Shown: in pieces, positions 12,005 through 29,812 of the stretch
Numbering within the stretch: position 1 is the stretch's first letter
How the letters are laid out: every line of letters starts with the position of its first letter
From: Thermofilum uzonense
GTDB taxonomy: Archaea; Thermoproteota; Thermoprotei; Thermofilales; Thermofilaceae
Direction: 5' to 3'
DNA length: 64,000 nucleotides
Assembly: GCF_000993805.1 (NCBI RefSeq)
Contig: NZ_CP009961.1
Coordinates: forward strand, 738,714 to 802,713
The notes under the pieces: model-generated
The model's input: only the letters and a program-made list of their open reading frames with translations
Databases searched by the model: none
What the model was told of the DNA's origin: nothing
Program-made: the position numbers and the translations under genes

Positions 12005-14113
12005 TCATTCGAGCCTTGTGAGCCTCTCCTCGCTCGGTATAGTGAAGTATCCGGTTAGCCTTATGTCCCGGCTGGAGGAGCCCACCCTTACCTCATAGGT
12101 TCCCTTCTCGAGGAGCCAGCGGCTGCCGTCGAAGCTTGCTAGATGGGACAGCTTCACCGTTACCTCTACTAGCTCTGACTCGCCGGGGTTTAAGAGCCTG
12201 GTCTTCTTGAAGCCCTTAAGCTCCTGGAACGGCTTGTCGAGCCTGCCCTTGGGCGCCCTTACGTAGACCTGTGCTACTTCCTTCCCGGGAAGCTTCCCCG
12301 TGTTTGTGACTTGGAAGCGTATCCTCACCTCGCCCCGTGTGAGCGTGACGTCAAGGTCCTTGTACGCGAAGGTGGTATAGCTCAACCCGTGGCCGAAGGG
12401 GTATGCGGGCTCGACGCCGAAGGTGTCGTAGTACCTGTAGCCAACGTATATTCCCTCCTCGTATACTACTCTCTTCGGGTTGTCTGGTGGCTCCCCTGGG
12501 AAGGTCCAGGATGGCACGTGAGCGTAGTCTCTAGGAAAAGTTACTGGGAGTTTCCCTGATGGGTTTATCCGCCCCGTTAGAGCGTCCACTATGACCCTGC
12601 CAGCCTCCTGCCCCGGCTGCCATGCAAGCAGTATGGCGTCGGCTAGACCGCGCCAGCTCGCGACCTCTACGGGGTTACCGATGTTGAGGACCACGATGAC
12701 CTTCTTGCCGGCACTCCTGAACGCATTGGAGACTTTCTCCAGCAGCCATCGCTCGTCGCTGCTTAGGTAGAACTCTTCCGGGGTTAGGTCGTAGCCTTCC
12801 CCTGAGACTCGTGAGAAGACTACGACTGCGGCGTCGCTCCTCGCGGCTGAGGCCTCTATGATACTCTCCGAGAGGAAGTTCTCGGAGAGCGTGGGCTTGT
12901 CGGGCTCGTCCTTGAAGCTTTGCTCGATATTCGGCATTTCATCCTTCAAGGCCTCCTCGTAAGTCTTTGCGACCTCCTCGTCTATCCTGAGCCCCCTCTC
13001 CCTAGCCGCGTTGAGGACGGTGGACACGTAGGGTGGATGAGTGTGCCCGCTGCCCTGGCCACCCTTAACCGTTGCCACGTGTCCCGTACCGAAGAACGCT
13101 ATCCGGGCATCGGCTGGGAGCGGGAGGGCTTGGTTGTTTTCCAGGAGTACTAGGCCCTCGGCGGCGGCCTCGTATGCTATCCTAGCGTGCTCCTCTAGGT
13201 CTGGTTTCATCGAGGGCTTGTAGCCCTTGAAGGCTGGGGAGTCTGCGAGTACTCTTAGAACCCTTTCGAGGCTCCTATCAACCACCTCCATGCCTAGCTT
13301 ACCCGATCTAACCGCCTCCAAGAGCTCCTTCACCTTATCCTCCCCGCCGGGCATTATCATGTCGTTCCCAGCCCGTAGCTGTCTCGAGACGTCTTCGCCC
13401 GCGCCCCAGTCCGTCATAACGAAGCCCTGGAATCCCCACTCCTCCCTGAGAACCCTCGTCAAAAGCCACTCGTTTTCAGAGCAGTGAACACCGTTTAGCT
13501 TGTTGTACGCGCTCATAACAGCCCAGGGCCTCCCCTCCTTTACGGCTATCTCGAAAGCCCTGAGGTATATCTCCCGCAGCGCACGCTCTGAGACAACAGT
13601 GTCTAGGCCCCAACGCCCAGTCTCCTGCTCGTTCGCGACGAAGTGCTTAACGCATGCACCCACGCCCGTGGACTGTACCCCCCTCACGTAGGCGGCCGCC
13701 ATCACGCCGGAGAGGAGAGGATCCTCGGAAAAGTACTCGAAAAGCCTGCCACCAAGAGGGTTCCTGTGTATGTTAAGCGCCGGCGCTAGGAGCACGTCCA
13801 CGCCGTAGGCGAGGGCCTCCTCGCCGATCGCCCGGCCAACCTTCTCGACGATCTCGGGACTCCATGTTGACGCCAGCATGACCGCGACGGGGAAAGCGGT
13901 TGCGGTGCAGCATCCCCCCTCTATCCTGACGCCCGCGGGCCCGTCGGCAAGCACGAAGCCTGGAATCCCGACTCTCGGCACAGGGTGTGTCTCGCCTGCC
14001 GCACCAGGGACCCGTGAGCCGGGAAACATGTGCGTGCCTCCTACTCCCACGAGAACACCGGCCTTCTCCTCTAGCGTCAACTTGTTTAGAAATTCTCGAA
14101 TGCCCACATTCAT
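12005..14113 (-). CDS. Glycoside hydrolase family 3 beta-glucosidase/xylosidase
   Basis: A 702-residue GH3 enzyme hydrolysing terminal beta-linked sugars with retention. The N-terminal TIM barrel holds GFVLADGPAGVR, CVKHFVANEQETGR and the nucleophile segment GFVMTDWGAG (Asp near residue 236). The alpha/beta sandwich domain follows (SRVSGEGYDL, VVLNIGNPVEV), and a fibronectin III-like domain ends the protein (VTNTGKLPGKEVAQVYV). No signal peptide is present, so it acts inside the cell on imported oligosaccharides. A sugar ABC importer lies about 15 kb away. The A/T-rich leader just upstream (TTTTTAATA on the minus strand) is a TATA candidate. Substrate preference cannot be read from the sequence. 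Confidence 0.92.
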   Translation of the reverse strand: MNVGIREFLNKLTLEEKAGVLVGVGGTHMFPGSRVPGAAGETHPVPRVGIPGFVLADGPAGVRIEGGCCTATAFPVAVMLASTWSPEIVEKVGRAIGEEALAYGVDVLLAPALNIHRNPLGGRLFEYFSEDPLLSGVMAAAYVRGVQSTGVGACVKHFVANEQETGRWGLDTVVSERALREIYLRAFEIAVKEGRPWAVMSAYNKLNGVHCSENEWLLTRVLREEWGFQGFVMTDWGAGEDVSRQLRAGNDMIMPGGEDKVKELLEAVRSGKLGMEVVDRSLERVLRVLADSPAFKGYKPSMKPDLEEHARIAYEAAAEGLVLLENNQALPLPADARIAFFGTGHVATVKGGQGSGHTHPPYVSTVLNAARERGLRIDEEVAKTYEEALKDEMPNIEQSFKDEPDKPTLSENFLSESIIEASAARSDAAVVVFSRVSGEGYDLTPEEFYLSSDERWLLEKVSNAFRSAGKKVIVVLNIGNPVEVASWRGLADAILLAWQPGQEAGRVIVDALTGRINPSGKLPVTFPRDYAHVPSWTFPGEPPDNPKRVVYEEGIYVGYRYYDTFGVEPAYPFGHGLSYTTFAYKDLDVTLTRGEVRIRFQVTNTGKLPGKEVAQVYVRAPKGRLDKPFQELKGFKKTRLLNPGESELVEVTVKLSHLASFDGSRWLLEKGTYEVRVGSSSRDIRLTGYFTIPSEERLTRLE

Positions 14114-16554: not shown

Positions 16555-16788
16555 ATGAGGAGGATGAGCGCTGTAATCAGCTTTAGAGTCCCTAGGAGGC
16601 TAAAGGAGGAGATCGAGAAGCTAGGTTTAGATTATGCCAGCGAGCTACGCGCCTACCTTGAGGAGCTTGTTAGGAGGAAAAAAGCTGAGGCTTTGAGGCG
16701 GGAGATGGACAGTCTGAGGGAGGACATTGGGAGGATTGAGGGCAATCTCGCGGCTGAGTTCATAAGAGAGGAACGGGATGCCCACTAG
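16555..16788 (+). CDS. vapB: VapB antitoxin
   Basis: A 77-residue antitoxin. The N-terminal strand-helix-helix VISFRVPRRLKEEIEKLG is the ribbon-helix-helix DNA-binding part. It is followed by a charged coiled helix and a VapC-binding tail (AAEFIREERDAH). Its end overlaps the vapC start by 11 nt, so translation is coupled. It neutralises the neighbouring PIN ribonuclease and probably represses the operon. Confidence 0.88.
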   Translation: MRRMSAVISFRVPRRLKEEIEKLGLDYASELRAYLEELVRRKKAEALRREMDSLREDIGRIEGNLAAEFIREERDAH

Positions 16789-17233
16789 GCTTGTAGTGGC
16801 TGATGCGAGTGTAGCTGTCAAGTGGGTTATTTTGGAGGCTTACAGTGATCATGCGTTCAAGCTGAGGGACGACTTGTTGGATGGGCTAGTGGAGGTGCAT
16901 GCTCCCGCCTTCTTCCTGGTCGAGGTGGCGAGCGCGCTGAGGAAATACGTTATCCGCGGCTTAGTCCGGAGAAGCCAGGCTGAGAGGGCTTTTGGGCTTA
17001 TAGCGGAGAGCGGGGTGGTGCTACACAATCTAGAGCCTGGTTTTATCGCCAGGAGCTTGCAGGCAAGCCTTGACCTTGGGGTGACTGTGTATGACGCCGC
17101 CTACATAGTCTTAGCCGACTCTCTGGGTGCCTTGATGTACACCGCGGACGAGAGGCTTCTCGGCAACCACGCTGTTCGAGGGCTCGGAGTGGTGAGACAT
17201 GTAAAGGATTACGAGGGTTCTCAAAGAACTTGA
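16778..17233 (+). CDS. vapC: VapC PIN-domain ribonuclease toxin
   Basis: A 151-residue PIN-domain protein. The acidic quartet expected for Mg-dependent RNA cleavage is visible: D in VADASVAVKW, E in FFLVEVASALRKY, D in GVTVYDAAYIVLA and D in MYTADERLL. Length and spacing are typical for VapC. It overlaps vapB, confirming a complete toxin-antitoxin module, unlike the orphan VapB at 8416-8646. Confidence 0.92.
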   Translation: MPTRLVVADASVAVKWVILEAYSDHAFKLRDDLLDGLVEVHAPAFFLVEVASALRKYVIRGLVRRSQAERAFGLIAESGVVLHNLEPGFIARSLQASLDLGVTVYDAAYIVLADSLGALMYTADERLLGNHAVRGLGVVRHVKDYEGSQRT

Positions 17234-17349: not shown

Positions 17350-18312
17350 CTATTTCAGCTTTTCCAGCTTTTTAGCAACTTTTGTCTTTAGATCCTCGAT
17401 GCTGGTGTAGCCCTCGACGTTGCTGGTTTGTGATCCGAGCTTGCTTATCAGCCCTGAGGGCGCGAGAACCACGTGGTCGTCACGCATATCCTGGGCCTTG
17501 GCGACTGACGCCAGCACCTCTGACATAGACTCTGGCGACTCGGGCACGATGTCGAATGATATGTTTTTCTTGCCATCTGTGACTAGAATATCCACGCGGT
17601 GGGTGAAACCCGTTCTACCTGGGACGGCTTGGGAGAGTTTAGCCGTGAGACCCATTTTTTCCGCGACGCTTTTAACCTCCATCATCATGAGGCTCTTTAA
17701 TGCCTGTTGGATTCCATCCTTCCTGACTTTGTAGGCGTAGACTGGGAGGACGATTGCGTCCCTGTGGTCGAATAGTGCTCCGCAAGCCCTGCACTTGAAG
17801 AGCGGGTGTGGAACCTCGAAGCGTGCCCCGCACTCGCTGCAGTTATACATTATTCCTAGGAGTACAACGTTGTCCTTTGATAATGGTTCACCGCATTTTT
17901 TACATGCGGATCCCTCTATCTTCTCAACGACGTTTACGGTGCCGCACTTCACGTGGCTGACAGCTATCGTCTTGATAAGCCTCTCCGAGCCGCATTGTGG
18001 GCATTTGAGCTTAGGAGCCACCATGTGGGACCGGCACTTGGGGCAAAGGATTGCCTGTTCCTGGTACTCTCTCTCGACCACGCCCATCCTCGCGAGTTCC
18101 TCGAGGAGCTCCGAGTCCTGAACCTTGTACCTTACAGCTACGCGGAGGATATCAGGATAGTGATAGCCGAGCTCGCTGGAATATGAGGGTTTTATCTCAT
18201 CGATCCTCTCTTGGAGGATAAGGGATAGCAAGGCTACAACTGCCTCTCGGGGCACGCCTCTAGATCCTAAAGATGTGGAGTGGGGTGTGCCCTCCTGTTC
18301 CTTCCTCAGCAT
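17350..18312 (-). CDS. Multi-zinc-ribbon protein of the TackOD1 type
   Basis: A 320-residue soluble protein. Cys/His ligands form successive knuckles at C90/C93, C104/C107, H120/C123, C137/C140, C158/C161 and C174/C177. This H-x2-C...CxxC...YxCxxCG...CxxCG layout corresponds to the TackOD1 (thaumarchaeal output domain 1) pattern as I remember it. The N-terminal ~85 residues look like a winged-helix region, and the C-terminal ~120 residues (HRVDILVTDGKKN then ISFDIV) resemble a nuclease-like or NTPase-like alpha/beta fold without clear catalytic motifs. It is divergent from the pilus ATPase gene, so it may relate to control of surface structures, but function is not known. Confidence 0.6.
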   Translation of the reverse strand: MLRKEQEGTPHSTSLGSRGVPREAVVALLSLILQERIDEIKPSYSSELGYHYPDILRVAVRYKVQDSELLEELARMGVVEREYQEQAILCPKCRSHMVAPKLKCPQCGSERLIKTIAVSHVKCGTVNVVEKIEGSACKKCGEPLSKDNVVLLGIMYNCSECGARFEVPHPLFKCRACGALFDHRDAIVLPVYAYKVRKDGIQQALKSLMMMEVKSVAEKMGLTAKLSQAVPGRTGFTHRVDILVTDGKKNISFDIVPESPESMSEVLASVAKAQDMRDDHVVLAPSGLISKLGSQTSNVEGYTSIEDLKTKVAKKLEKLK

Positions 18313-18486
18313 GTATAATCAACTTAAATAACATTATTTAATATCACTTTGATATTCTTAACGTCTTATTTAGGAAACTTAGATTAATGTTTTTGTACCA
18401 AAGTATAATAGCAATAAGTATTGATGGGAAACCAAGCTTCTTTCATATAAGTTAATGTTTTTAACACGTACGACATATAATAATTT

Positions 18487-19998
18487 GTGTCGAGTACTGA
18501 ATCCGGGTCGGCTCCACGTGCCATAATTGTACCGCCTGAGGAGATTATCCTGGACTTCTACGAGGTTGTCCCGCCGCTAGGCTACGCAGTTATAACTAGA
18601 AACCAGAGGACTGGGCGGTTAATGTATAGGGTTGTAGAGCCGGTTTTAACTAGGGAGGATCAGGCTGTGATAGAAGAGCTCAAGAGGATTCTTGTGGAGG
18701 AGCAGAGGCCTAGCCTGGAGGAGCTCAGGAAGCGTGGAGCAGAAGAGGTGTTGCGTGAGCGCGTTGAAAGGATTATAAAGAGGTATAGGCTTCCGATACC
18801 AAGGGAGGCCTTCGACAAGGTCTTCTACTATGTGAGAAGAGACATGCTAGGGTACGGCAAGATAGACTTGCTGATACGGGACCCGCAGATAGAGGATATC
18901 TCGTGCGACGGTATAGGCTTGCCTGTCTTCGTGTGGCACAGCAGGTTCGAATCCCTTCCAACAAACATCGTCTTCGCGGATGCATCCGAGATGGAGAGCG
19001 TCCTGGTAAGACTGGCCCTGAAGGCCGGGAAACAAATATCGGTGGCTCAGCCAATAGTTGAGGGCTCGCTGCCTGAGGGCTATAGGCTTCACGCTGCTCT
19101 CTCGGAGGTGGCGCGCAGGGGAGGCACGTTCACCGTGAGGAAGTTTAGGGAGGTGCCTTTCTCGATCGTGGACCTCGTGGTGAGCGGTACATTGTCTCCA
19201 GAGCTTGCAGCCTTCCTATGGCTCCTGGTCGAGCACAAGAAGAGCCTTATCGTAGTAGGGGCCACAGCGGGTGGGAAGACCACTCTGTTAAATGCCATTG
19301 CCACCTTTATACGTCCAGAGGCTAAGATAGTCTCCATCGAGGAGACCCCGGAGCTGAACCTCCCTCATGAGAACTGGGTTCCACTCGTCGCGAGGCCTGC
19401 TTCCGACCCTTGGGCCCGTGATGTGACTCTCTTCGACCTGTTGAAGTCAGCTTTGAGGATGCGCCCGGACTACGTGATCGTGGGGGAGGTTAGAGGCGAG
19501 GAGGCCTTCACGCTGTTCCAAGCTATCGCGACGGGGCATGCGGGAATGTGCACCATGCATGCGGAGAACGCGGACTACGCGGTGAAGCGGCTTACATCTG
19601 AGCCCATGAACGTACCTGTCCCGCTCATCCCCTTGATGAATGTCTTCGTTACGGTTAGGAGGTTTGTCACGGAGGATAAGATCTTCAGGAGGGTTGTGGA
19701 GGTCAGCGAGATCCTAACGGGGGATAAACTTGCCTGGAACCCTGTTTACAGGTATGACCAGGTCAGCGACAAGATTATGAGGGTTGGCGAAAGCACCGTC
19801 TTGGCGAGGATAGCCGAGGAAGAGGGTGTCCCGTTAAGCTTGCTGGTCGAGGAGCTGAAGAGGAGAGAAGAGATAATCAAATGGCTCGTTGAGAGGAAGA
19901 TAACCGACTTCCAGCGTGTCAGCAGGCTTGTGAGGGACTATGCCCTGCGTCCCACGACTGTCTACACCGCTATCGAGAGAGGGGTGTACACGCTTTGA
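18487..19998 (+). CDS. Type IV pilus/Tad secretion ATPase (GspE/VirB11/TadA family)
   Basis: A 503-residue hexameric ATPase that powers pilus assembly at the inner face of the membrane. Walker A is GATAGGKTT near residues 258-266; the Asp box region follows with VSIEETPELNLPHENW; the Walker B/RGEE region is DYVIVGEVRGEEAF near 327-340, and the His box is GHAGMCTMHAEN near 352-363. The N-terminal ~120 residues form the usual helical domain (YGKIDLLIRDPQIEDIS precedes the core). It starts at GTG 18487, behind an A/T-rich promoter (TTTCATATAAG near 18440-18450). Two membrane platform genes follow with overlap, then the pilins. Confidence 0.93.
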   Translation: MSSTESGSAPRAIIVPPEEIILDFYEVVPPLGYAVITRNQRTGRLMYRVVEPVLTREDQAVIEELKRILVEEQRPSLEELRKRGAEEVLRERVERIIKRYRLPIPREAFDKVFYYVRRDMLGYGKIDLLIRDPQIEDISCDGIGLPVFVWHSRFESLPTNIVFADASEMESVLVRLALKAGKQISVAQPIVEGSLPEGYRLHAALSEVARRGGTFTVRKFREVPFSIVDLVVSGTLSPELAAFLWLLVEHKKSLIVVGATAGGKTTLLNAIATFIRPEAKIVSIEETPELNLPHENWVPLVARPASDPWARDVTLFDLLKSALRMRPDYVIVGEVRGEEAFTLFQAIATGHAGMCTMHAENADYAVKRLTSEPMNVPVPLIPLMNVFVTVRRFVTEDKIFRRVVEVSEILTGDKLAWNPVYRYDQVSDKIMRVGESTVLARIAEEEGVPLSLLVEELKRREEIIKWLVERKITDFQRVSRLVRDYALRPTTVYTAIERGVYTL

Positions 19999-20858
19999 GC
20001 CTACCCTACCTTCTAGGTAAAACCATTACCCGGTTGACTGGTGAAAGGCTAAAAGCCTTCAGGGACATATACTACACTGCAGGCTTCACTGACGTATGGG
20101 AAGTATACCTGGGGAAGTGGCTCCTAGCATACCTTCTTTCGACACCATTTGCGATGACTATCTCCCTGTTTATCCACGAGTACATTCTCCGATATTCCTT
20201 ACCTGTAGCCTTTCTCCTTACGCTGGTGCTCCTCATCCCCTACACTTTGATATTCCTTGCATTCACCCTCTACTACCCCCTGTACAGGAGGCACTCGAGG
20301 GGCTGGACTATAACGGCGAGGCTACCTTACACGCTTGCTAATTTCGCGGTGCTTGCTTCCTCAGGCCTCACGTTTACCGAGGCACTCAGGACTGTAAGGG
20401 AGCTCGAGGAGAACAAGGAGATAAGACGGGAGATAGACCTCCTCCTCACAGACCTGGAGCTTCTCGGCTATGATGTCCTGACAGCCCTGGAGAGAGCGGC
20501 GAGGCGTAGTCCTTCAGCTGCGCTATCACTGTTTCTCTCAGGCTTAAGGGATGCATACATCACAGGGGGCAACTTGTACAGCTATGCGTCCTTCTCTACT
20601 CAGAGGCTCCTCGAGCTTAAGAGAAGCGAGCTACGCAGGGTTACGAATACAGTGGCAGCGATCTCAGAGACCTATGTAACCCTAATGGTAGCCGCCCCCC
20701 TAATGTTCATAGTTATGCTGGCAATTATAGGGATGCTTGGAGGAACAATTGCAGGCCTACCAGTAAACCTTCTCATCTCTGTCCTCGTGCTGATCGGCAC
20801 TCCAACGTTCGCTGCAGCTACACTAGTCATGCTGGACTCTGCGTTATCAAAGGTGTAG
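19995..20858 (+). CDS. Pilus platform membrane protein (TadC/FlaJ, T2SSF domain), first copy
   Basis: A 287-residue membrane protein overlapping the ATPase stop by 4 nt. Two hydrophobic spans lie near residues 45-90, a cytoplasmic T2SSF-like segment in the middle (LTFTEALRTVRELEENKEIR), and two spans at the C-terminus (MVAAPLMFIVMLAIIGM onward). It is half the size of FlaJ, as is usual for Tad-type systems where two TadB/TadC-like halves pair. It anchors the ATPase to the membrane and acts with the next gene. Confidence 0.87.
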   Translation: MSLPYLLGKTITRLTGERLKAFRDIYYTAGFTDVWEVYLGKWLLAYLLSTPFAMTISLFIHEYILRYSLPVAFLLTLVLLIPYTLIFLAFTLYYPLYRRHSRGWTITARLPYTLANFAVLASSGLTFTEALRTVRELEENKEIRREIDLLLTDLELLGYDVLTALERAARRSPSAALSLFLSGLRDAYITGGNLYSYASFSTQRLLELKRSELRRVTNTVAAISETYVTLMVAAPLMFIVMLAIIGMLGGTIAGLPVNLLISVLVLIGTPTFAAATLVMLDSALSKV

Positions 20859-20861
20859 CCT

Positions 20862-21773
20862 ATGCCCTACCTACCCCTACGCGGAAGAAGACTTGCCATC
20901 ATCGCACTCCTCTCGCTAACGCTAGGCTCCCTTCCGCTCATTGTACTTGCAACGCTTTGGGGAAATGTTGGCCGGGAGCTCGTCTATGTTGAGCTTACGC
21001 GGGAAATTGTCCTGCCCTGGTCTATAACGCTCTACACCTTAATAGGCATCTCAGTTCCGCTCGGCCTGGCGCCCGTCGCAGTCATCCTCTGGCTTAACCT
21101 CAGGTATGTTGACTCCCTTAACAGGCAGCTCCCCACCTTCTTTAAAGGCGCGGCCGACGGGGTTAGGGCAGGCATGCCTCTCCCAAGAGCACTCGAGGTC
21201 GCCGCAAGGGCTGTGGGAAACCCCCTCGGTAGAGAGATACTTGACGCGCTCTCCGTATCAGCTCTAGGCTTAAGCCTACAGGAGGCCCTAGAACGTTTAA
21301 CTGTGAAGATCCCGGAGCCAGCCCTTAAAAGGGCTACAAGCCTGCTGGTGGTGGCTCAGAGGTCGGGTGGCCGTGTAGCGGACGTACTGGACGCTGCAGC
21401 CGAGATGAACGGGGTTCTGAACAGCTACGAGGAGGAGAGGAGGGCTAACATGTCGCCGTACGTCTGGGTCTCCTATGTCGCTCTCGTCGTCTTCCTTTTA
21501 ACAGCCACTATAATAACCTCGGTATTCGTCGAGCCGCTCTACAGGGTAAGGCTACCAGGCTTCGTGTCTCCGCCTCCACCCGAGCTCTTCAAGAGCATCT
21601 TCTATATCTCGGCTTGCATGCAAGCTTTTGCAGGAGGGATCGTCTCGGGTAAAATCGCTAGGGGGACTGTCAAGGCTAGCCTGCTCCATATAGTAGTGAT
21701 GCTCACAATTGTCGTACTCTACTTTTTCCTACAGGAGCTATACTTTGCCCCAGCTATAACCCCGAGAATCTAG
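20862..21773 (+). CDS. Pilus platform membrane protein (TadC/FlaJ, T2SSF domain), second copy
   Basis: A 303-residue partner of the preceding gene, starting 3 nt after its stop. Hydrophobic segments occur near residues 12-32, 50-78, 203-225 and 270-298; the central cytoplasmic domain contains LPTFFKGAADGVRAGMPLPR and a run of helices typical of T2SSF. Together the two proteins would form the platform through which pilin subunits are assembled. The gene ends 4 nt inside the convergent small membrane gene. Confidence 0.86.
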   Translation: MPYLPLRGRRLAIIALLSLTLGSLPLIVLATLWGNVGRELVYVELTREIVLPWSITLYTLIGISVPLGLAPVAVILWLNLRYVDSLNRQLPTFFKGAADGVRAGMPLPRALEVAARAVGNPLGREILDALSVSALGLSLQEALERLTVKIPEPALKRATSLLVVAQRSGGRVADVLDAAAEMNGVLNSYEEERRANMSPYVWVSYVALVVFLLTATIITSVFVEPLYRVRLPGFVSPPPPELFKSIFYISACMQAFAGGIVSGKIARGTVKASLLHIVVMLTIVVLYFFLQELYFAPAITPRI

Positions 21774-21970
21774 GGCCACTCCACTAGGAGGCGCGCCACA
21801 TGGAGAAAAGATAAGGCCTTCTCCGTAAATGAGTGAATAAAGGCCAACACCGTGAGGAGCAAGACAATCATCAGTAATCCAAGAGCCAAGTAGACGAGTG
21901 CCTCCGCAACACCCCTCAAAAGGTACAAGGCCCTAATCCTCCTTGCAAACTCGCTTATAATGCCCTCCAA
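21770..21970 (-). CDS. Small single- or double-span membrane protein
   Basis: A 66-residue protein with a strong hydrophobic span (ALVYLALGLLMIVLLLTVLA, residues ~24-43) and an amphipathic tail. It begins 3 nt after the stop of the pilin-like gene at 21974-22795, so it is translated from the same leftward transcript. Its end overlaps the convergent TadC-like gene by 4 nt. Possibly an accessory membrane component of the pilus; no family is recognised. Confidence 0.6.
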   Translation of the reverse strand: MEGIISEFARRIRALYLLRGVAEALVYLALGLLMIVLLLTVLAFIHSFTEKALSFLHVARLLVEWP

Positions 21971-21973
21971 GGC

Positions 21974-22795
21974 TTACCCCCCAACCCGTATCCTTGCAAT
22001 GTAAGTTCGAAGCTTGGATACTACCCGAACCTCGTACTCGTAGCCGGGCACCAACCCAGAGCTCAGCTGGAAAACCTGAACCCCTCCAGGCGGGATAACC
22101 ACGCGCTGCTGAACCACGGGTAGGGGCCCCGTTGGCCCGTTGACGTAGACCGCGTAGACCTCGAGGGGCAGGTACCCGGTATTAGAAACAACAACCTGGG
22201 CCTGCTGGAGCAGTTGGAGGGAGTAGCCCTTGACATTGCTAAACGTAACGCTGAAACTCCTTGTAGAGTTATAGTCGTATGCGAATACCAGGGTCGTGTT
22301 CTTGAAGCTCACCTCCACGCTGCTGCTGTTCAAGAAGAATCTTTCAGTCATCCTCCAAGACCCGCCTACTCTCTCGAATAATTCCACGAAGCATGGACCT
22401 TGAGAGCTGAGCGAGAAGTTTCCCACGGATCCCAGGACGCCTGAAGTTGCACTGACATTGACGAGGGCGACACAAGCATTTCTAGGAAAAGGGAAGACCA
22501 CGCCCCCGGGAATACTACGAGAGGAGAGGTTAAGGCATGAAACAGTTAACACAGGGCCAGACTGTGTAGTATCCCCGACAATGACTCTTATACTAGTAGT
22601 CGTGTCTACTAGGCCTGCGTATTTCAGGCTTATGCTGGGCTGTCCCTCCGCGAGCTGCTCGGAGCTCTGCGAGGCTATCTCGCTCAGGGTTGATGTGAAC
22701 GTCGTGTACATACGGAACATTAGTGCTAGGAACATCGAGGCTATGATTATGAAGAATATGGTTCCAAGGGCAGTTGAGATCCCGCTACGCAGCAC
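21974..22795 (-). CDS. Pilin-like secreted protein with class III-type signal
   Basis: A 273-residue protein. Its N-terminus MLRSGISTALGTIFFIIIAS has the short basic leader and hydrophobic helix used by archaeal prepilin peptidase substrates. The remainder is beta-rich, with Ser/Thr/Val and many N-x-S/T sequons (SLNLSSR-like text near residue 88), as expected of an extracellular, glycosylated protein. Its end contains EYEVRVVSKLRTYIARIRV. It is transcribed opposite to the main pilin at 22889 from a shared ~90-nt region. It may be a minor pilin. Confidence 0.7.
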   Translation of the reverse strand: MLRSGISTALGTIFFIIIASMFLALMFRMYTTFTSTLSEIASQSSEQLAEGQPSISLKYAGLVDTTTSIRVIVGDTTQSGPVLTVSCLNLSSRSIPGGVVFPFPRNACVALVNVSATSGVLGSVGNFSLSSQGPCFVELFERVGGSWRMTERFFLNSSSVEVSFKNTTLVFAYDYNSTRSFSVTFSNVKGYSLQLLQQAQVVVSNTGYLPLEVYAVYVNGPTGPLPVVQQRVVIPPGGVQVFQLSSGLVPGYEYEVRVVSKLRTYIARIRVGG

Positions 22796-22856
22796 AAATA
22801 ATATGGTGTGTTCAGGGTTTTTAACTGAATCGGTCGCTTATCATAATAAACGTTAA

Positions 22857-22866
22857 TTTTATATCC
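22857..22866 (+). promoter_or_regulatory. TATA box of the main pilin gene
   Basis: GTTAATTTTATATCC ends about 25 nt before ATG 22889. The spacing supports a leaderless mRNA starting at 22889, and argues against the open-frame TTG at 22868 as start. Confidence 0.45.
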
Positions 22867-22888
22867 ATTGATTAAATTATATAAATTG

Positions 22889-23314
22889 ATGGGTATGAAA
22901 AGGAGGGCTATAAGCCCTGTGATAGCAACGCTCCTTTTAATAGTTATTGCTGTAGCAGCGGCAGTCCTGACTTATATCTGGCTGACAGGATACATGGGCA
23001 CAATAACCCCCCACCAGGCACCAACACAGCTACAGGAAAGAGTAAAGATTGACGCCGTCAAAGTTAATACTACTGGGGTCTACATATACGTGGCTAATGT
23101 AGGTGACGTAGACACAAGTATTGTGGGAGCCTACGTCCTTACATTAAACTATACAGTTGTCTGTGGTGGAAGTAACAACTATGCTTTGCCTAAAGGTTCA
23201 ACCACACAGGTACCAGTACAAGGAACATGCACTCTCACATCTGGTAAAACATATATAGCAAAGGTTACGGCTAAGCAAGGCTCAGAGGCCACATACACAT
23301 TTGTCGCACCTTAA
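22889..23314 (+). CDS. Archaeal type IV pilin (DUF1628-type)
   Basis: A 141-residue pilin. The leader MGMKRRAISPVIATLLLIVI is a textbook class III signal: basic residues, cleavage just before the ISPVIATLL helix, then a ~20-residue hydrophobic assembly helix. The rest is a small beta domain with one Cys pair candidate (VVCGG and GTCTLTSG). Cleaved subunits would polymerise through the N-terminal helix using the ATPase and platform encoded upstream. ATG 22889 is chosen over the open-frame TTG because of the TATA position. Confidence 0.9.
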   Translation: MGMKRRAISPVIATLLLIVIAVAAAVLTYIWLTGYMGTITPHQAPTQLQERVKIDAVKVNTTGVYIYVANVGDVDTSIVGAYVLTLNYTVVCGGSNNYALPKGSTTQVPVQGTCTLTSGKTYIAKVTAKQGSEATYTFVAP

Positions 23315-23385
23315 ATTTTTATCTCTCTTATAAAAATACTATTTTTGTAAATAAGGATTTAATAGCAGGTACCTCGAAATTAAAT

Positions 23386-25014
23386 ATGGTTAAGGCTACC
23401 ATGCTGGGACAGGCGGAAATCATCGCAGCCTTACTTCTAACCGTCATCGTATTGGCAGGATTCGCGATTACTTGGACTTATCTTTTCCCCAGCTACCTTT
23501 CCTGGGAGCATGAGGCTTCAAACACGGCCCTGGAGTCTAGGCTTGCGGCCTCTGAGAAAATCGTGATTGGAAACGCAGTTTTCTCCTCCTCGACGGTCAA
23601 GCTAACTCTCGTGAATACAGGTAGTGTCGGGATACGCGTGAGGGCTATATACGTGAATGAGACCCCCGCGTGGCAGGGACAGCTCGATTTAGCCCCAGGC
23701 CAGCCGGCCGAGATAAGCTTGTCTGTGCCGGGGGACAACCTATTGTTATGGGTAAAGGTGTGCTCTGCGAGAGGAAACTGCTGGATCTTCCCAGTGTTCA
23801 ACTCATCCCTTACTACTCCTACAACCCCACCGCCGCCACCTCCACCTCCTCCACCCTCCGGAGGGGCTCCGGTATTCGTGATAACTAGTTATAACAGTAC
23901 AATCTACGGACAGCCAGGCAGCACTGCGAGCCTCGTAGTGGGGGTCTCCAACACTGAGAACTCGAGCGGGGCATGTAGGGTCGAGGTCTACGACCAGGCT
24001 GGTAGCCTTGCAGCCTCCACCACTACAACCATACAAGCAGGCTCAACAGTAACCGTGAGGCTGGCTCTAACTCTTCCCGGAACCAAGGGAACATATACCT
24101 GGACCATAAAGGCATACAACAGCTACACGGGCAGGTACGACGACTCTAAGACATTCACGGTGCGCGCCCTAGACATCCTCCCGGACACGAGCGCCGTTCT
24201 CTTCTATACACCATTCGAGACACCGCCCAGCGGCTGGCAAGCAATGGGAGGCAAATGGAGAATAGCCACAGGTCAGGGTTGGGCTGGCTCCAACGCTCTG
24301 CAGGGAGTAGACGACAACAAAGGTCCTTCCCGTACCTCCATTTATAGTTGGTCGCAGGCGATAGGCGGCTACTCACATATAAGGACTCTCGTCGTGCTTG
24401 GAGGGGTAAACCAAAACGACGGGATTGATAGGGGCTTCGCCTTTCTCGATATCTCCCAGACTACCAGAGGGTTCTATGGCGTTGTTATCCAGCCTAGCAA
24501 AGGGAACGTGATACTGAAGGTGGAGCTCGGAACCACAAGTGGAATATCCGATCTCAACCAAGTCTCGGCAGGCTACTCTTCGAGCTGGTACATCCTGTAC
24601 TGCGGGTATTCGCGGAGCGGCGGCGTTAATTCCTTTAGCGCAACACTCTATGATCAGAGTGGCGTTGGGCTAGCGACTCTTCAGGTAAGCGATTCATCCC
24701 TGTCTCCGAACTACTTCGGCTTATTAGTTGACGGCGGCACGGCGTTCTTCGACGACCTCGTTCTCGCGACTGGGGATCCGAGGTACGTTAATGTCACGGG
24801 CCTTGATCCAGGCTGGTCTGTTGAGATTTGGAGGGGCTCTACACTCGTGGCTAGTGGTGTGGCCGACGCCACTGGCGTTGCAAGGCTGGACGTGAAGTTG
24901 TATCCGATAGTTCAGCCTGCCACCCTCGTGGTAAAGGATGGATCGGGGGCAATCGTTCTGAGCAGGACTTATGACGTTGTCGTGGGAGGGTACGTTTTTC
25001 GGGTTGATCCTTAA
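23386..25014 (+). CDS. Large pilin-like adhesin with polyproline linker
   Basis: A 542-residue surface protein. Its N-terminus (GQAEIIAALLLTVIVLAGFA) resembles a prepilin leader plus assembly helix. A beta domain of ~100 residues follows, then a TTPTTP and uninterrupted 10-proline linker near residues 145-156. Next is a CARDB/BACON-like beta domain (EVYDQAGSLAAS), and the C-terminal part from ~residue 265 resembles a concanavalin-like (LamG) jelly roll (FYTPFETPPSGWQAMGGKW). A pilin helix with a long adhesive head would place it at the pilus tip or along the filament, for attachment to surfaces or polysaccharide. The adhesin role is inference. Confidence 0.65.
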   Translation: MVKATMLGQAEIIAALLLTVIVLAGFAITWTYLFPSYLSWEHEASNTALESRLAASEKIVIGNAVFSSSTVKLTLVNTGSVGIRVRAIYVNETPAWQGQLDLAPGQPAEISLSVPGDNLLLWVKVCSARGNCWIFPVFNSSLTTPTTPPPPPPPPPPSGGAPVFVITSYNSTIYGQPGSTASLVVGVSNTENSSGACRVEVYDQAGSLAASTTTTIQAGSTVTVRLALTLPGTKGTYTWTIKAYNSYTGRYDDSKTFTVRALDILPDTSAVLFYTPFETPPSGWQAMGGKWRIATGQGWAGSNALQGVDDNKGPSRTSIYSWSQAIGGYSHIRTLVVLGGVNQNDGIDRGFAFLDISQTTRGFYGVVIQPSKGNVILKVELGTTSGISDLNQVSAGYSSSWYILYCGYSRSGGVNSFSATLYDQSGVGLATLQVSDSSLSPNYFGLLVDGGTAFFDDLVLATGDPRYVNVTGLDPGWSVEIWRGSTLVASGVADATGVARLDVKLYPIVQPATLVVKDGSGAIVLSRTYDVVVGGYVFRVDP

Positions 25015-25206: not shown

Positions 25207-26019
25207 ATGCTTAACAAAACGTTACCTTATGAGATGGGCCGATATGCTATCGAGCCTGGTACGCGGCCTTACATCTACCACTTGATACTTAGTCCTGAGG
25301 CTTTGAAGGCTACAGGGCTGCTCGAGGAAGTCTCAATGATATTTGCTTCCAGGAATATCCCGATCCTAGAGTTGAAGGTTTCCACTCCGCCCAGGTTGAA
25401 GGTCAGGATCATTGTTATAGTTGATTTAAAAGGCCGGGAAGACCTCGCAGAGGGCTTGAGAGGCGAACTGTCAAGGCTGAGGTTTGTTGAAGAAGTTACG
25501 TATACACCTCCCATAGCGGAGGGCGTTGTTTTCGACACCTTTAGCTTCCCGTTAACCTTTATGGGCGAACGCTCGATTATAATGCGGAGAGCTGTCTATG
25601 AAGGGTTTATAAAGGGGGGATGGGAGAGGTTTGGCTCTGCCTTCGCCGCTATGCTCTACCTTATGGGTTTCGAGGCTGGACGGAAAGCTTTCGTAGACTA
25701 TTATAGTATTTTCCGTGATCCTAACACCCAGCTCAAGGCTGTGAGCGCGGTGTTCCAGATGCTTGGCTACGGTGTCCTAGAGTTTGTCAGGGTTGACGAC
25801 AATGCCCATAGGGCTGTCGTCAGGGTTTATGATAGCTTTGAGTGCGAGTTGTTCAAGGGGGCTGGTGATATAAGGAGTGGTTTTGTCAGGGGCATTATAG
25901 CAGGCTTCCTAGCGGGTCGGTGGAATGTGAAGGAGGTTTCTGCCAGGGAGGTGAAGTGTATAGCTAGGGGAGACCCCTATTGCGAGTTTCATGTTGAAGT
26001 GGAAGAGGGCAGTAGATAG
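25207..26019 (+). CDS. V4R-domain protein with N-terminal ACT-like domain
   Basis: A 270-residue cytoplasmic protein. The C-terminal ~160 residues carry the 4-vinyl-reductase (V4R) pattern: GGWERFGSAFAAMLYLMG, a central FECELFKG segment and the closing KCIARGDPYCEFHVE, with Cys pairs that may bind a metal or ligand. V4R domains sense small hydrophobic ligands and often sit in regulators. The first ~90 residues (LELKVSTPPRLKVRIIVIVD) look like an ACT-type ligand-binding fold. No DNA-binding or output domain is visible. The gene has its own promoter behind the pilus cluster, so it may regulate a nearby process through protein contact. Confidence 0.75.
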   Translation: MLNKTLPYEMGRYAIEPGTRPYIYHLILSPEALKATGLLEEVSMIFASRNIPILELKVSTPPRLKVRIIVIVDLKGREDLAEGLRGELSRLRFVEEVTYTPPIAEGVVFDTFSFPLTFMGERSIIMRRAVYEGFIKGGWERFGSAFAAMLYLMGFEAGRKAFVDYYSIFRDPNTQLKAVSAVFQMLGYGVLEFVRVDDNAHRAVVRVYDSFECELFKGAGDIRSGFVRGIIAGFLAGRWNVKEVSAREVKCIARGDPYCEFHVEVEEGSR

Positions 26020-26815: not shown

Positions 26816-27292
26816 GTGATGAGCGAGAAGCTTGTCAAAAGCCTGGGGAAGAGCATAGAGCTTGAGAACAAGAATGCCTCGGATCTCGAGAGTGGTGTTA
26901 AGGGTTTGAAGAGCGAGGTTATCAGGACTATTCTGGGGAGTATAGCTTTTGACTCTCGCAAGCACGCCGAGATGTATAAGGGTATACTTAACATCCTGAC
27001 TAATGTCTCGCCTGCTATCAGCGAGGAGGACTTTGAGAAGTTGAGGGTTATTGTTCAGACACACATAAAGCTGGAGGAGGAGATGATAAAGGAGCTTAAA
27101 ACCTATATGGGTGAGTTGAAGGATCCTAGGGTTGAGAATATATTCCGCTACATCCTGAATGACGAGTACAAGCATCACAGAATGCTTGTAAACATTCTCG
27201 AGATTATTGTTAAGAGAGAGGTCATAAAAGAGTCTGAGATATGGGATATGCTTTGGAAGGAGGTACCATTCCACGGGACGCCCGGAGGTTAA
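26816..27292 (+). CDS. Ferritin-like di-iron helical protein
   Basis: A 158-residue all-helical protein. It shows the paired motifs of ferritin-like/rubrerythrin families: E-rich first helix (SIELENKNASDLESG), DSRKHAEMYKGIL (D/ExxxH), EEEMIKELKTYMG and DEYKHHRMLVNIL (ExxxH). There is no rubredoxin domain. Members store or oxidise iron, or reduce peroxide. The tail WDMLWKEVPFHGTPGG is unusual. It is independent of the ferritin at 8851-9339. Confidence 0.72.
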   Translation: MMSEKLVKSLGKSIELENKNASDLESGVKGLKSEVIRTILGSIAFDSRKHAEMYKGILNILTNVSPAISEEDFEKLRVIVQTHIKLEEEMIKELKTYMGELKDPRVENIFRYILNDEYKHHRMLVNILEIIVKREVIKESEIWDMLWKEVPFHGTPGG

Positions 27293-27469: not shown

Positions 27470-29812
27470 TTATTTATCAAGCCTCTTTTTCTTGCGGAAT
27501 AGGATGACCGCTATACTTGAGAAGGTTAAAGCGAGCAGAATGGGCCATAATGGCACTACGATTGACGATACGCTGCAGTCAGCTGTAGAGGTCTCAGGTA
27601 TAACGACGCGTAACCGGTATACGAGTAGGGAGGAGTTCCGGGACGACTTTAAAGCACAGCTGAGGCTTGCTTCAGCGTAGAGTGCCGGGAAGCCTAGGCT
27701 TGATACGTCCAGATCTGCTACGGCTTCGTAAAGAGCCTTGATGTTTAAAGGCCTGTCAACCACGACTTCTTTTCTACTTGTTTTCTCACCGTCTATGATG
27801 AACGTAGTTGGCACGTAAAGTACGCCGTTTATGACGGTGGGTGAGGCGTGCAGGAGGATTGTGGAGCCCTGGTCGACCCATTCGGCTGTGACGCCTGCTA
27901 GGAGGGATATTGTGCAGAAGTATTGCCTCGTATAGGTGACTTCATATGTTCCGGGACCTATGATCTTGGCTTCGCTCAGATTCCAGGTGTTTGCCTTGTA
28001 TCTTACCGCGGGCTTTGCGAGCCTAGTATTATTCCCTAGATTAATAACTTCAGGTAACATGGCCTTGAGTGGTGTTCCTTCATCAACCCATAGGGTGGTC
28101 TCGTTGAGGGATTTTATTGTTACTAGGAATTGTTTACGATAGTAGCCTATGAGCTCGCCCGGCCTCTTGATCTCGTAGCTACTGTTGACCTCGGCGCCCG
28201 AGAATGTTATCTTCTCGAGCTTGTACCTTACTCCTTCTCCAGCATCAATAACCTCTGGAATCAGGGAGGCGACCCTTGTTCCATCGTAGACCCAGAGCTC
28301 ACTCCTCTTGTGTGGAAGTGTTAGATAAACTAGATGTTGTATAAGATACTTGATCTCAACGACAGCCCCAGGCCAAACCCTTGTGGCGTTGAAGGGCTTA
28401 CCCTCGACGAAAACTGTGGGCTGGACGAGCCTGGTACCGTTGCCCAGGTCTATTATGGGCTTTATGAAACGCGAGATATCGGTGCTGGTTGAGAAGTTTA
28501 ACCCTAGGGGTGTTTTGACGAGTACAAGGGAGGACCAGAGGAGCTTGGCTTCGGTAGATCCTGGCTTCACAATCATTATTCCCGGCCTTACAAGCGATGC
28601 TGAGGCAACTGATTTCTCGTACGTGTTTCCCCCGGTTGACCAGGCTGTGAGGGGGGTTGACCACTGGCTATCGCGTAGGTATTCTAGTTTTAGGGTTACT
28701 TGGCCAGAGTTGAGCAGGGCTAAGGGATAGTCTGCTGACTTTCCCGCGAATACAAGCTCAGCGTCTATTGGGCTCCACTCCCATAGGAGGGGTTTTACTG
28801 TAAGGCTTGCCTTATAGGCACCAGAGTAGGGTGTTAAGGACACTTGGTCGACTAATACTCCATCTCTCAGGAACATGATTGTGATTGTACCTGTTGTTCT
28901 CGCAAGGCTGACTTCGAGGCTTGTAGGGCCCAAGGGTTTGGTTGTCGGCTCTGCGTAAGCGTAAAGGTAGCCTTCGCAGCCCCCAGATCCGCCGCTATAA
29001 AAGCGGACTGTGCCCTTACCGGTAATAGCTGTTGCGAGCAACGGGGATAGTGTACACGTGGCGTCCTTATGCACCATCGTTATGTTCCATATGTTTATGT
29101 TGACGTAGACCTTATTCCCTTCAATTACAAGCACCTCCTGTAACCAGTACCTTTGCAGAGAACCTGAAAGTGTAACCACTTCAAGGTTCAGGTTGAGCTG
29201 GACGCTAGCACCGGGGCTTGTACCTGAGGTGCTGAAGCTGGTTGCGGCGAAGCCGTCTGTGAAGCCGATCTCAGCTCTTGCCGCGGTGAAATTGTAGGCA
29301 TAGGCTGTGTATGTTCCGTTTATAAAGGATATCCCCGTGTCTATTATTCCTATGGGGGCTGCCGCTCCGAGGCTGGTCTGGGATGTGGAAGTCATGCGTT
29401 CGAGGGCCCAGGCTAGGGCTGGCGCGCCGCAAAGGTGAACTGTGAGCCTGCCGCTTATCCTTGCTGTTAAACTTGACGGGTTTAGTATTGCAAGCCCTAT
29501 CCTTCTGGGCGTGGTTGTTCTCGCCGAGAGCATCTGGGATAGAAACGTTTGAGGGTTCGTGGACGCTATCTGGCTGTTTTGCTCCGTGTCCAGAACGACC
29601 ATCTGTACAGGGGCAGTCGAGGTTAGCTCAGGATACATTGTTATGTCGACGATCCCGGGGCGAGAAAAGTAGACCTCATAGAAGTGATAGGTGTTCGGGG
29701 GTATGGCGTCGTGAATCATGTATGATAAGCTTACGCAGTTGTCCTGTGCAAGCAAGGTTTTGAGTGAAAAAAGGAATATAAAGAGCGTTAACAGGAGTAA
29801 GACTCTACGCAT
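27470..29812 (-). CDS. Membrane-anchored surface protein with four tandem ~75-aa repeats
   Basis: A 780-residue exported protein: signal peptide VLLLLTLFIFLFSLKTLLAQ at the start, and a C-terminal anchor (LWPILLALTFSSIAVILF followed by RKKKR). The middle is beta-rich with many N-x-S/T sequons. Residues ~430-690 hold a repeated unit with landmarks of the form LW/F-V-D-x-G-T...P-E-V-I-N-x-G...TRL..P, e.g. WVDEGTPLKAMLPEVINLG and DISRFIKPIIDLGNGTRLVQ. The gene lies 51 nt before the stop of the sugar importer ATPase in the same orientation, so it could share that operon. It may be a cell-surface polymer-binding or S-layer-associated protein. No enzyme motif was found. Confidence 0.7.
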   Translation of the reverse strand: MRRVLLLLTLFIFLFSLKTLLAQDNCVSLSYMIHDAIPPNTYHFYEVYFSRPGIVDITMYPELTSTAPVQMVVLDTEQNSQIASTNPQTFLSQMLSARTTTPRRIGLAILNPSSLTARISGRLTVHLCGAPALAWALERMTSTSQTSLGAAAPIGIIDTGISFINGTYTAYAYNFTAARAEIGFTDGFAATSFSTSGTSPGASVQLNLNLEVVTLSGSLQRYWLQEVLVIEGNKVYVNINIWNITMVHKDATCTLSPLLATAITGKGTVRFYSGGSGGCEGYLYAYAEPTTKPLGPTSLEVSLARTTGTITIMFLRDGVLVDQVSLTPYSGAYKASLTVKPLLWEWSPIDAELVFAGKSADYPLALLNSGQVTLKLEYLRDSQWSTPLTAWSTGGNTYEKSVASASLVRPGIMIVKPGSTEAKLLWSSLVLVKTPLGLNFSTSTDISRFIKPIIDLGNGTRLVQPTVFVEGKPFNATRVWPGAVVEIKYLIQHLVYLTLPHKRSELWVYDGTRVASLIPEVIDAGEGVRYKLEKITFSGAEVNSSYEIKRPGELIGYYRKQFLVTIKSLNETTLWVDEGTPLKAMLPEVINLGNNTRLAKPAVRYKANTWNLSEAKIIGPGTYEVTYTRQYFCTISLLAGVTAEWVDQGSTILLHASPTVINGVLYVPTTFIIDGEKTSRKEVVVDRPLNIKALYEAVADLDVSSLGFPALYAEASLSCALKSSRNSSLLVYRLRVVIPETSTADCSVSSIVVPLWPILLALTFSSIAVILFRKKKRLDK

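Follow-up and report, generated by a model that had tools for sequence, protein, structure and literature searches.

A type IV pilus locus of Thermofilum uzonense with a modular pilin-adhesin and an adjoining TackOD1 protein

Introduction

Archaeal type IV pili of clade 4 (the Aap/Ups/bindosome kind) have an ATPase, one or two TadC-like proteins and PilA-family pilins. The passages of Makarova et al. 2016 (PMC4858521) on these systems add that some pilus loci hold a large secreted protein, "either a minor pilin or an adhesin", and that arCOG06883 double-Zn-ribbon proteins occur mostly in the type IV pilus loci of Thaumarchaea. We analyzed a locus with the same gene set at positions 17350-25014 of a 64,000-nucleotide stretch (the window) of the Thermofilum uzonense genome, which is one contig of 1,611,988 bases. 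Judging from sequences and predicted structures, we consider it rather likely that this locus serves to make and regulate a single adhesive pilus of the archaeal type IV kind and that the TackOD1 protein encoded at its edge is a dedicated, non-catalytic regulator. Compared with those passages, the large protein is resolved here as a modular pilin, and the tie of TackOD1, which carries a degenerate PD-(D/E)XK domain, to one part of the ATPase tree extends beyond Thaumarchaea and takes in Thermofilales. The term "V4R", which names the domain of a further protein of our locus, is absent from the main text of that paper.

The TackOD1 domain (PF18551) is characterized in the relevant part of Galperin et al. 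2018 (PMC5847659) by five CXXC motifs and one HXXC motif, a stand-alone form and a link to type IV pilus loci. The window protein has the same ligands, also stands alone and also lies in a pilus locus; it differs by its occurrence in Thermofilales and by an additional PD-(D/E)XK-like domain that is not described in that part of the paper. In Ca. Nitrosocaldus cavascurensis (PMC5797428), a type IV pilus locus of the TACK group has a putative adhesin gene between prepilin genes, but the account of that locus neither describes the adhesin as a pilin fusion nor mentions a zinc protein.

The window adhesin resembles Streptococcus sanguinis PilC, which in the sections of PMC9934059 on its structure consists of a pilin module, then an Ig-like and then a ConA-like lectin module, and is a minor pilin modeled at the pilus tip. 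Unlike PilC, the window protein has an archaeal pilin fold and a putative archaeal signal, a linker of ten prolines (Pro-10), an extra C-terminal Ig-like part and a head that is only a candidate lectin, and its cassette is carried by several pilin scaffolds in a single family. An InterPro survey counted more than 1,200 modular pilins (PMC8179133); it speaks of bacteria, and the word "archaea" is absent from its main text. The fusion of a pilin with a head domain therefore has a bacterial precedent, and the description of it as a "rare fusion" in an earlier note on this DNA is not supported. An archaeal modular pilin was not found described in literature searches covering titles and the starts of abstracts, with most subscription journals outside their coverage.

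Results

Composition of the pilus locus

All genes of 17350-25014 were present as open reading frames (ORFs) in an ORF check. The features are listed below in the order of their positions.

17350..18312, minus strand: TackOD1 protein, 320 aa (PF18551, E 5.5e-22)
18313..18486: divergent intergenic region between the TackOD1 and ATPase genes, with two copies of TAATGTTTTT (18385, 18453)
18487..19998, plus strand: pilus assembly ATPase of the VirB11/TadA/FlaI superfamily, 503 aa, GTG start (T2SSE, E 1.5e-33)
19995..20858, plus strand: TadC-like platform protein, half 1, 287 aa (T2SSF, E 7.1e-12)
20862..21773, plus strand: TadC-like platform protein, half 2, 303 aa (T2SSF, E 5e-14)
21770..21970, minus strand: small hydrophobic partner, 66 aa, 3 bases downstream of the minor pilin gene
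21974..22795, minus strand: divergent minor pilin, 273 aa (Arch_flagellin N-terminus, E 0.0072, under the cut-off)
22895..23314, plus strand: PilA-type pilin, 139 aa, first-listed start 22868 (TIGR02537, 35.2 bits against a cut-off of 20)
23386..25014, plus strand: modular pilin-adhesin, 542 aa (pilin fold, Pro-10, CARDB, all-beta head, Ig-like part)
25207..26019, plus strand: V4R-domain protein, 270 aa (PF02830, 39.4 bits against a cut-off of 31)

The earlier note had named one ATPase, two half-size platform proteins and a canonical pilin, and the T2SSE, T2SSF and TIGR02537 matches bore this out; each platform protein had a single T2SSF domain, and the T2SSE and T2SSF matches were over their Pfam cut-offs. 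The same note had called the cluster Tad-type, which did not hold in the bacterial sense. The TadA equivalog TIGR03819 scored 203.4 bits on the window ATPase and did not reach its cut-off of 373.15, and neither a secretin nor TadZ gave a Pfam match in the ten locus proteins scanned, a search that covered the locus only; the bacterial Tad/Flp reading was rejected on these grounds. The archaellum ATPase model also stayed under its cut-off (382.7 bits against 550). We name the locus an archaeal type IV pilus, its platform proteins being of the TadC-like kind that Makarova et al. 2016 (PMC4858521) describe. It has the VirB11/TadA-type ATPase, a TadC/PilC-like platform and a pilin with a class III signal, and the genome encodes a prepilin peptidase, the one PF01478 match in it (27.8 bits against 26.5), which lies outside the window (G000:C1:1053348; labels in G denote genomes, G000 being that of T. 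uzonense itself, and labels in L denote fetched loci or regions).

The PilA-type pilin has the class III signal motif KRRA^ISPV and was over the TIGR02537 cut-off as a 148-aa ORF. It was 63% identical to its counterpart in L024 and 60% to that in L026; its start is more likely the ATG at 22895 than the TTG at 22868, because the relatives align from 22895. Homologues of the 273-aa minor pilin were found in the same two loci (38% identity in L024 and 27% in L026), and the 66-aa partner had weak matches beside them (E 0.002 and E 0.009, respectively). The divergent pilin-like protein and small membrane partner described in the earlier note thus recur as a pair. The species description of T. uzonense reports non-motile cells, and the word "pili" is absent from its main text (PMC4673724).

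The nearest named relatives in the ATPase alignment search were Thermofilaceae, one of them being Thermofilum sp. NZ13. The T. uzonense genome has a second pilus-type locus (L037, C1:1288000-1306000) whose ATPase has 661 aa and 43% identity and whose TadC (628 aa) is encoded by one gene; a BLAST search of this locus gave no TackOD1 match.

Association of TackOD1 with pilus motors

We found TackOD1 over the PF18551 cut-off in 12 of 17 genomes of the family, and in all 12 it was beside the best match of the window ATPase. In the window the protein scored 78.7 bits against a curated cut-off of 32 and its gene, on the minus strand, diverges from the ATPase gene, just as the earlier note had stated of its multi-zinc protein. 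That note had asked whether the zinc protein is conserved next to pilus ATPases or is found elsewhere in all relatives; the first was observed and the second was not. Among the family genomes without TackOD1, the ATPase match started 170 bases from a contig end in G010 and was cut by one in G007, the best ATPase match reached only 44-45% in G015 and G006, and G005 had no ATPase match. Eleven of the 12 TackOD1 genes, including that of the window, were divergent from the ATPase gene, with L025 counted so from its strands (its stop-to-stop frames overlap, so the script gave no class); in G003 the two genes were co-directional with a pilin gene in between.

Across the phylum, TackOD1 was over the cut-off in 222 of 398 genomes. 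Outside the family we took 79 TackOD1 regions, hand-picked among the matches listed with the aim of one per genus, some genera being repeated and many regions being cut by contig ends. Pilus core genes (ATPase or TadC, with an E of at most 1e-10) were contained in 42 of the 79, as against one of 20 control regions hand-placed in genomes of the same set. For the core gene nearest to the best TackOD1 match, the arrangement was convergent in 34 of these 42 regions and co-directional in 8, and the distance was within 1 kb in 26. The link between TackOD1 and pilus genes therefore survives three gene arrangements: divergent, convergent and co-directional.

To relate TackOD1 to the motors themselves, a tree was built by a quick method from the 80 best ATPase loci of named genomes and the window (81 rows). 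The named loci were chosen via the ATPase, so that they cover TackOD1 genes near an ATPase. TackOD1 was present in the fetched flank at E 1e-6 in 16 of the 80 named loci, and 30 of the 80, whose flank was shorter than 4 kb on one side or the other and which showed no TackOD1, were not called. The TackOD1-linked label required 6 changes on the tree (5 without the uncalled rows) compared with 15.8 when shuffled, and none of 500 shuffles was as low; the tree has long branches, and near-copies inflate the clustering. All 17 TackOD1-linked ATPases, the window included, fell within one starred set of 37 rows, the rest of which comprised 10 rows without TackOD1 and 10 uncalled. This set mixes Thermofilales, Nitrososphaerales, some Bathyarchaeota and others, while among the other 44 rows, with Bathyarchaeota and Desulfurococcales among them, none of the 24 called was linked. 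Within our samples, the distribution of TackOD1 fits part of the motor tree better than it fits taxonomy.

Domains and fold of TackOD1

The window protein comprises a winged-helix-like N-terminus (~20-89), a region of Cys/His ligands (90-177) and a PD-(D/E)XK-like domain (~198-317). Twelve ligands (11 Cys and one His, in five CXXC and one HXXC) were invariant in all 12 aligned TackOD1 proteins, which suggests three zinc sites. In the AlphaFold2 model (pLDDT 88.5), the part before the ribbons ran helix-strand-helix-helix-strand-strand, which is the winged-helix order, and the part after them ran helix-three strands-helix-strand. Foldseek searches with the model returned Can2 nucleases (best E 4.2e-4) and Bax1 in the top rows. 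When the last part was compared by VIA-align, Bax1 scored Z 10.1 (110 aligned, rmsd 3.5) and AF1548 scored Z 9.1 (109 aligned, rmsd 4.1), with many restriction enzymes next. A profile of 48 TackOD1 relatives matched AF1548 independently (E 1.4e-4 over 95 profile positions), and the model has the alpha-beta-beta-beta-alpha-beta order of AF1548 (PDB 1y88). Mrr_cat was matched by 6 of the 48 members (best E 7.9e-4), but not by the C-terminal domain of the window protein alone. Together, the model and the profile indicate that the C-terminal domain of TackOD1 is a PD-(D/E)XK fold.

The active site was examined in an alignment of 95 TackOD1 proteins. The D...(D/E)xK signature of the superfamily was lacking: the position of the usual catalytic lysine (256) was Lys in one of 89 rows and is Val in the window protein, the first Asp (241) was present in 48 of 90 rows, the second acid (254) was Asp or Glu in 69 of 89, and some rows had neither acid. 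On the third strand, where AF1548 keeps E-C-K, the window protein has D-x-hydrophobic. Kept instead were K272 (77 of 89 rows) and D275 (87 of 88). We read the domain as an inactivated nuclease fold probably retained for binding; a lesser alternative would be that the lysine has moved. A weak VIA-align row to Tk-TIP26 (Z 7.1, 93 aligned) may, as a lead only, give a precedent for a restriction-enzyme-like fold in an archaeal transcription-linked protein.

Some TackOD1 frames (L044, L062, L063, L101 and L102) have ~160-250 residues ahead of the domain, measured stop to stop with the start not fixed, and no other Pfam family matched these N-terminal extensions at E 0.001.

Modular pilin-adhesin and its cassette

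The 542-aa protein with a ten-proline stalk (23386-25014) is as the earlier note described it. Its layout is a pilin fold (1-140), the linker of 10 prolines, a CARDB domain (~160-264), a head (~265-466) and an Ig-like part (~463-542). In VIA-align comparisons of the model (mean pLDDT 67.8), residues 13-140 matched the whole pilus subunit of Pyrobaculum calidifontis (8fk7_A; Z 10.1, 125 aligned), and residues 157-264 matched the CARDB domain of 3idu (Z 11.7, 105 aligned). The rows obtained with the whole adhesin mostly spanned the CARDB domain, and the Foldseek list was headed by large multi-Ig proteins such as complement C3. The protein therefore has two of the marks of a modular type IV pilin, a complete N-terminal pilin module (the 8fk7_A match) and a graft that is not pilus-specific, namely CARDB and a head that was also seen in L126, L127 and L129, where no pilin module was detected. 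The N-terminal module was also found alone, as proteins of 140-160 aa, in relatives (L214, L218, L221 and L222).

The head had been called LamG-like, and of this the all-beta character persisted in the low-confidence model, while LamG itself fared less well. The window head gave no Pfam match at E 0.1. Among 13 aligned heads, Laminin_G_3 matched one (0.04) and SO2946-like_C three (best 0.0063), and the head profile had a single weak match to PDB sequences, again SO2946 (E 0.41). By sequence, LamG may be taken as a fair guess for the head, and no more.

We scored 24 pilin-like proteins with a strict prepilin motif, to which we added a hydrophobicity condition of our own, and 18 passed. Both same-locus orthologues of the adhesin passed (RRG^QTEV in L024 and AKG^QVEV in L026). 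Besides two proteins of the window, discussed below, the failures were L222, L213, L215 and L219.

The CARDB-head-Ig cassette was not confined to one carrier. Its carrier was a GQxE-type pilin in three cases (the window, L024 and L026), a PilA-type pilin in three others (L215, L216 and L217, the last broken by a stop) and, in L214, a minor pilin of the 273 type. L210-L212 have it on another class-III-like N-terminus, with a separate small GQxE-type pilin before each; in L219 it follows a further hydrophobic N-terminus that is not shown to be a pilin. In L210-L213, from more distant species of the genus, the small pilin gene of the GQxE type and a large CARDB frame are separate, the first overlapping the start of the second. 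The large frames of L210-L212 also hold the head and the Ig end, in L213 CARDB alone was matched, and all four sit away from the fetched ATPase loci. A tree of 11 cassettes did not follow scaffold type, since the GQxE and PilA scaffolds each needed 3 changes for 3 rows; at least 2 changes were forced by starred branches, and 4 of the 8 inner branches were open.

The TackOD1 pilus locus carries a cassette adhesin in five family genomes (G000, G016, G002, G009 and G008), on three different scaffolds, and the same five genomes also have a V4R gene in the pilus locus. For the remaining seven genomes (G001, G003, G004 and G011-G014), neither was present in the loci fetched, which reach less than 3 kb past TackOD1 on the far side; in these genomes the adhesin and V4R, among the matches listed, were either on different contigs or at distances above 40 kb.

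V4R protein, intergenic repeats and flanking genes

The V4R gene at 25207-26019, which the earlier note did not include, probably belongs to the pilus locus too. In G009, as in the window, it lies 3' of the adhesin gene, and V4R is directly beside TackOD1 in G002 and G009. In other families, V4R was in tandem with TackOD1 (G120, G143, G101 and G204), and V4R genes were beside pilus ATPases in two Desulfurococcales loci (L194 and L204). V4R proteins form a large family, and a genome often has several of them. Since PMC5847659 reports that no two-component systems were detected in Crenarchaeota, V4R would be a reasonable candidate for a ligand-sensor input to TackOD1.

The word TAATGTTTTT occurred four times in the window (18385, 18453, 25012 and 25123), always on the plus strand and always in the pilus locus, against 0.15 expected; genome-wide there were 14 copies, of which these were 4. 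Both genomic copies of TTAATGTTTTTA were in the pilus locus. The TAATGTTTTT copy at 18453 precedes the ATPase start by ~25 bases, the place expected for a core promoter, and may be that promoter, another copy starts at the adhesin stop codon, and the word had been picked by eye. For these reasons we did not adopt TAATGTTTTT as a locus-specific operator.

Adjoining the TackOD1 gene, a small ORF without a Pfam match overlaps a PIN-domain gene (PF01850, E 1.2e-6) at 16555-17233, and the two probably form a VapBC-type pair. Farther out are a family 3 glycoside hydrolase (12005-14113, minus strand), a rubrerythrin-like protein (26816-27292) and a 780-aa protein with a thermopsin protease domain (27470-29812, minus strand; PF05317, E 2e-27).

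Discussion

We favor a model in which the locus produces one adhesive pilus under the control of TackOD1. The prepilin peptidase would mature the pilins, and the ATPase and platform proteins would polymerize the PilA-type pilin. The modular pilin would enter the filament via its N-terminal helix, probably at the tip, where the Pro-10 and CARDB stalk would hold the head outwards to bind a polysaccharide or the surface of a partner cell. Such a ligand is plausible because T. uzonense, in the growth data of its description, grows on starch and glucomannan and requires culture broth of other Crenarchaeota (PMC4673724). TackOD1, as a dedicated regulator without catalysis, would switch expression of the locus, possibly informed by the V4R protein.

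Several of our results weigh against this model. No pilus core gene was seen in 37 of the 79 TackOD1 regions outside the family, some of them cut by contig ends, so TackOD1 is not solely a pilus protein, and even in the part of the ATPase tree to which it is tied, TackOD1 was missing near 10 of 27 called ATPases. Gene order differs between lineages, which rules out a shared promoter as the general cause of the link. The restriction-enzyme-fold Z-scores of 8-10 are moderate, as best values of 7 to 8 are common without kinship according to the tool. None of five long TackOD1 proteins scanned had a REC domain at E 0.001, so a signaling role rests on the literature. The adhesin head lacked a firm family match, and its model was of low confidence (mean pLDDT 24-34 over 271-330). 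The earlier note had made the lack of a predicted cleavage site in the adhesin a refuting condition; both orthologues have the strict prepilin motif, while the window protein (MLG^QAEI) failed it at -2, where it has Leu; the 273-aa minor pilin of the window failed as well, and both of its homologues (L024 and L026) passed. Either prepilin cleavage tolerates the deviations in the window, or the adhesin and the 273-aa pilin would be poorly processed.

How TackOD1 would act is the point at which the strongest alternative arises. Rather than acting on DNA, it could work post-translationally by docking on the ATPase or the TadC platform and gating assembly, which we regard as a serious possibility, if not the one we would choose. 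TackOD1 tracks a part of the ATPase tree and not one promoter layout, and in all three layouts it is near ATPase or TadC genes, as docking would predict. On the other hand, winged-helix domains and zinc ribbons are commonest among nucleic-acid binders, and the modeled N-terminus and ribbons of TackOD1 are of these kinds. Other transcription regulators also occur in pilus loci, as recorded in the locus descriptions of PMC4858521.

A second alternative concerns the 542-aa protein, which may not be in the pilus at all, its uncleaved N-terminal helix anchoring an S-layer-associated surface protein. The Leu-Gly^Gln deviation in the window and the occurrence of the cassette head in proteins of other families without a pilin module detected by BLAST (L126, L127 and L129) are consistent with this, and CARDB and Ig repeats are frequent in surface proteins generally. 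However, residues 13-140 match an entire archaeal pilin subunit, both same-locus orthologues retain K/R-G^Q-x-E, the N-terminal module stands alone as small proteins in relatives, and the same cassette is found on two other pilin types. We consider a mere membrane anchor unlikely.

That TackOD1 is instead an active nuclease, its catalytic lysine having moved to the neighboring helix (K272), with the pilus serving as a DNA-handling system, seems very improbable to us. The conservation of K272, D275 and an acid at 254 would suit such an enzyme, as would the Can2, Bax1 and restriction-enzyme fold neighbors, but the usual lysine is almost never present, the Asp at 241 is kept in little more than half of the rows and both acids can be missing, and the scan of ten locus proteins named no DNA-uptake gene. 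Finally, a chance neighborhood of a TackOD1 unrelated to the pilus, for which the regions without a core gene might speak, is hardly credible in view of the 12 of 12 family genomes, the excess over the control regions outside the family and the clustering on the ATPase tree.

Returning to the regulated adhesive pilus, a broader version of it can be formulated. An exchangeable cassette of CARDB repeats, a jelly-roll-like head and an Ig end would have recombined among at least three pilin scaffolds in Thermofilales, and a class of pseudo-nuclease TackOD1 regulators, each joining a winged helix and three zinc sites to a restriction-enzyme fold that has lost its activity, would be tied to one part of the motor tree, with V4R proteins as ligand-sensor input in lineages without two-component systems. 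In this full form we put it forward as speculative, with the balance against it.

The machine itself is a known one, and its two notable features are a pseudo-nuclease zinc protein, probably a regulator, and a cassette that has probably changed its pilin carrier. Little is known of how archaea regulate pili other than the archaellum, and TackOD1 is a concrete candidate regulator; one would not expect a degenerate nuclease fold in such a role. The swapped cassette, for its part, would show that archaea graft pilus adhesins as bacteria do, placing one head on different pilins in related species.

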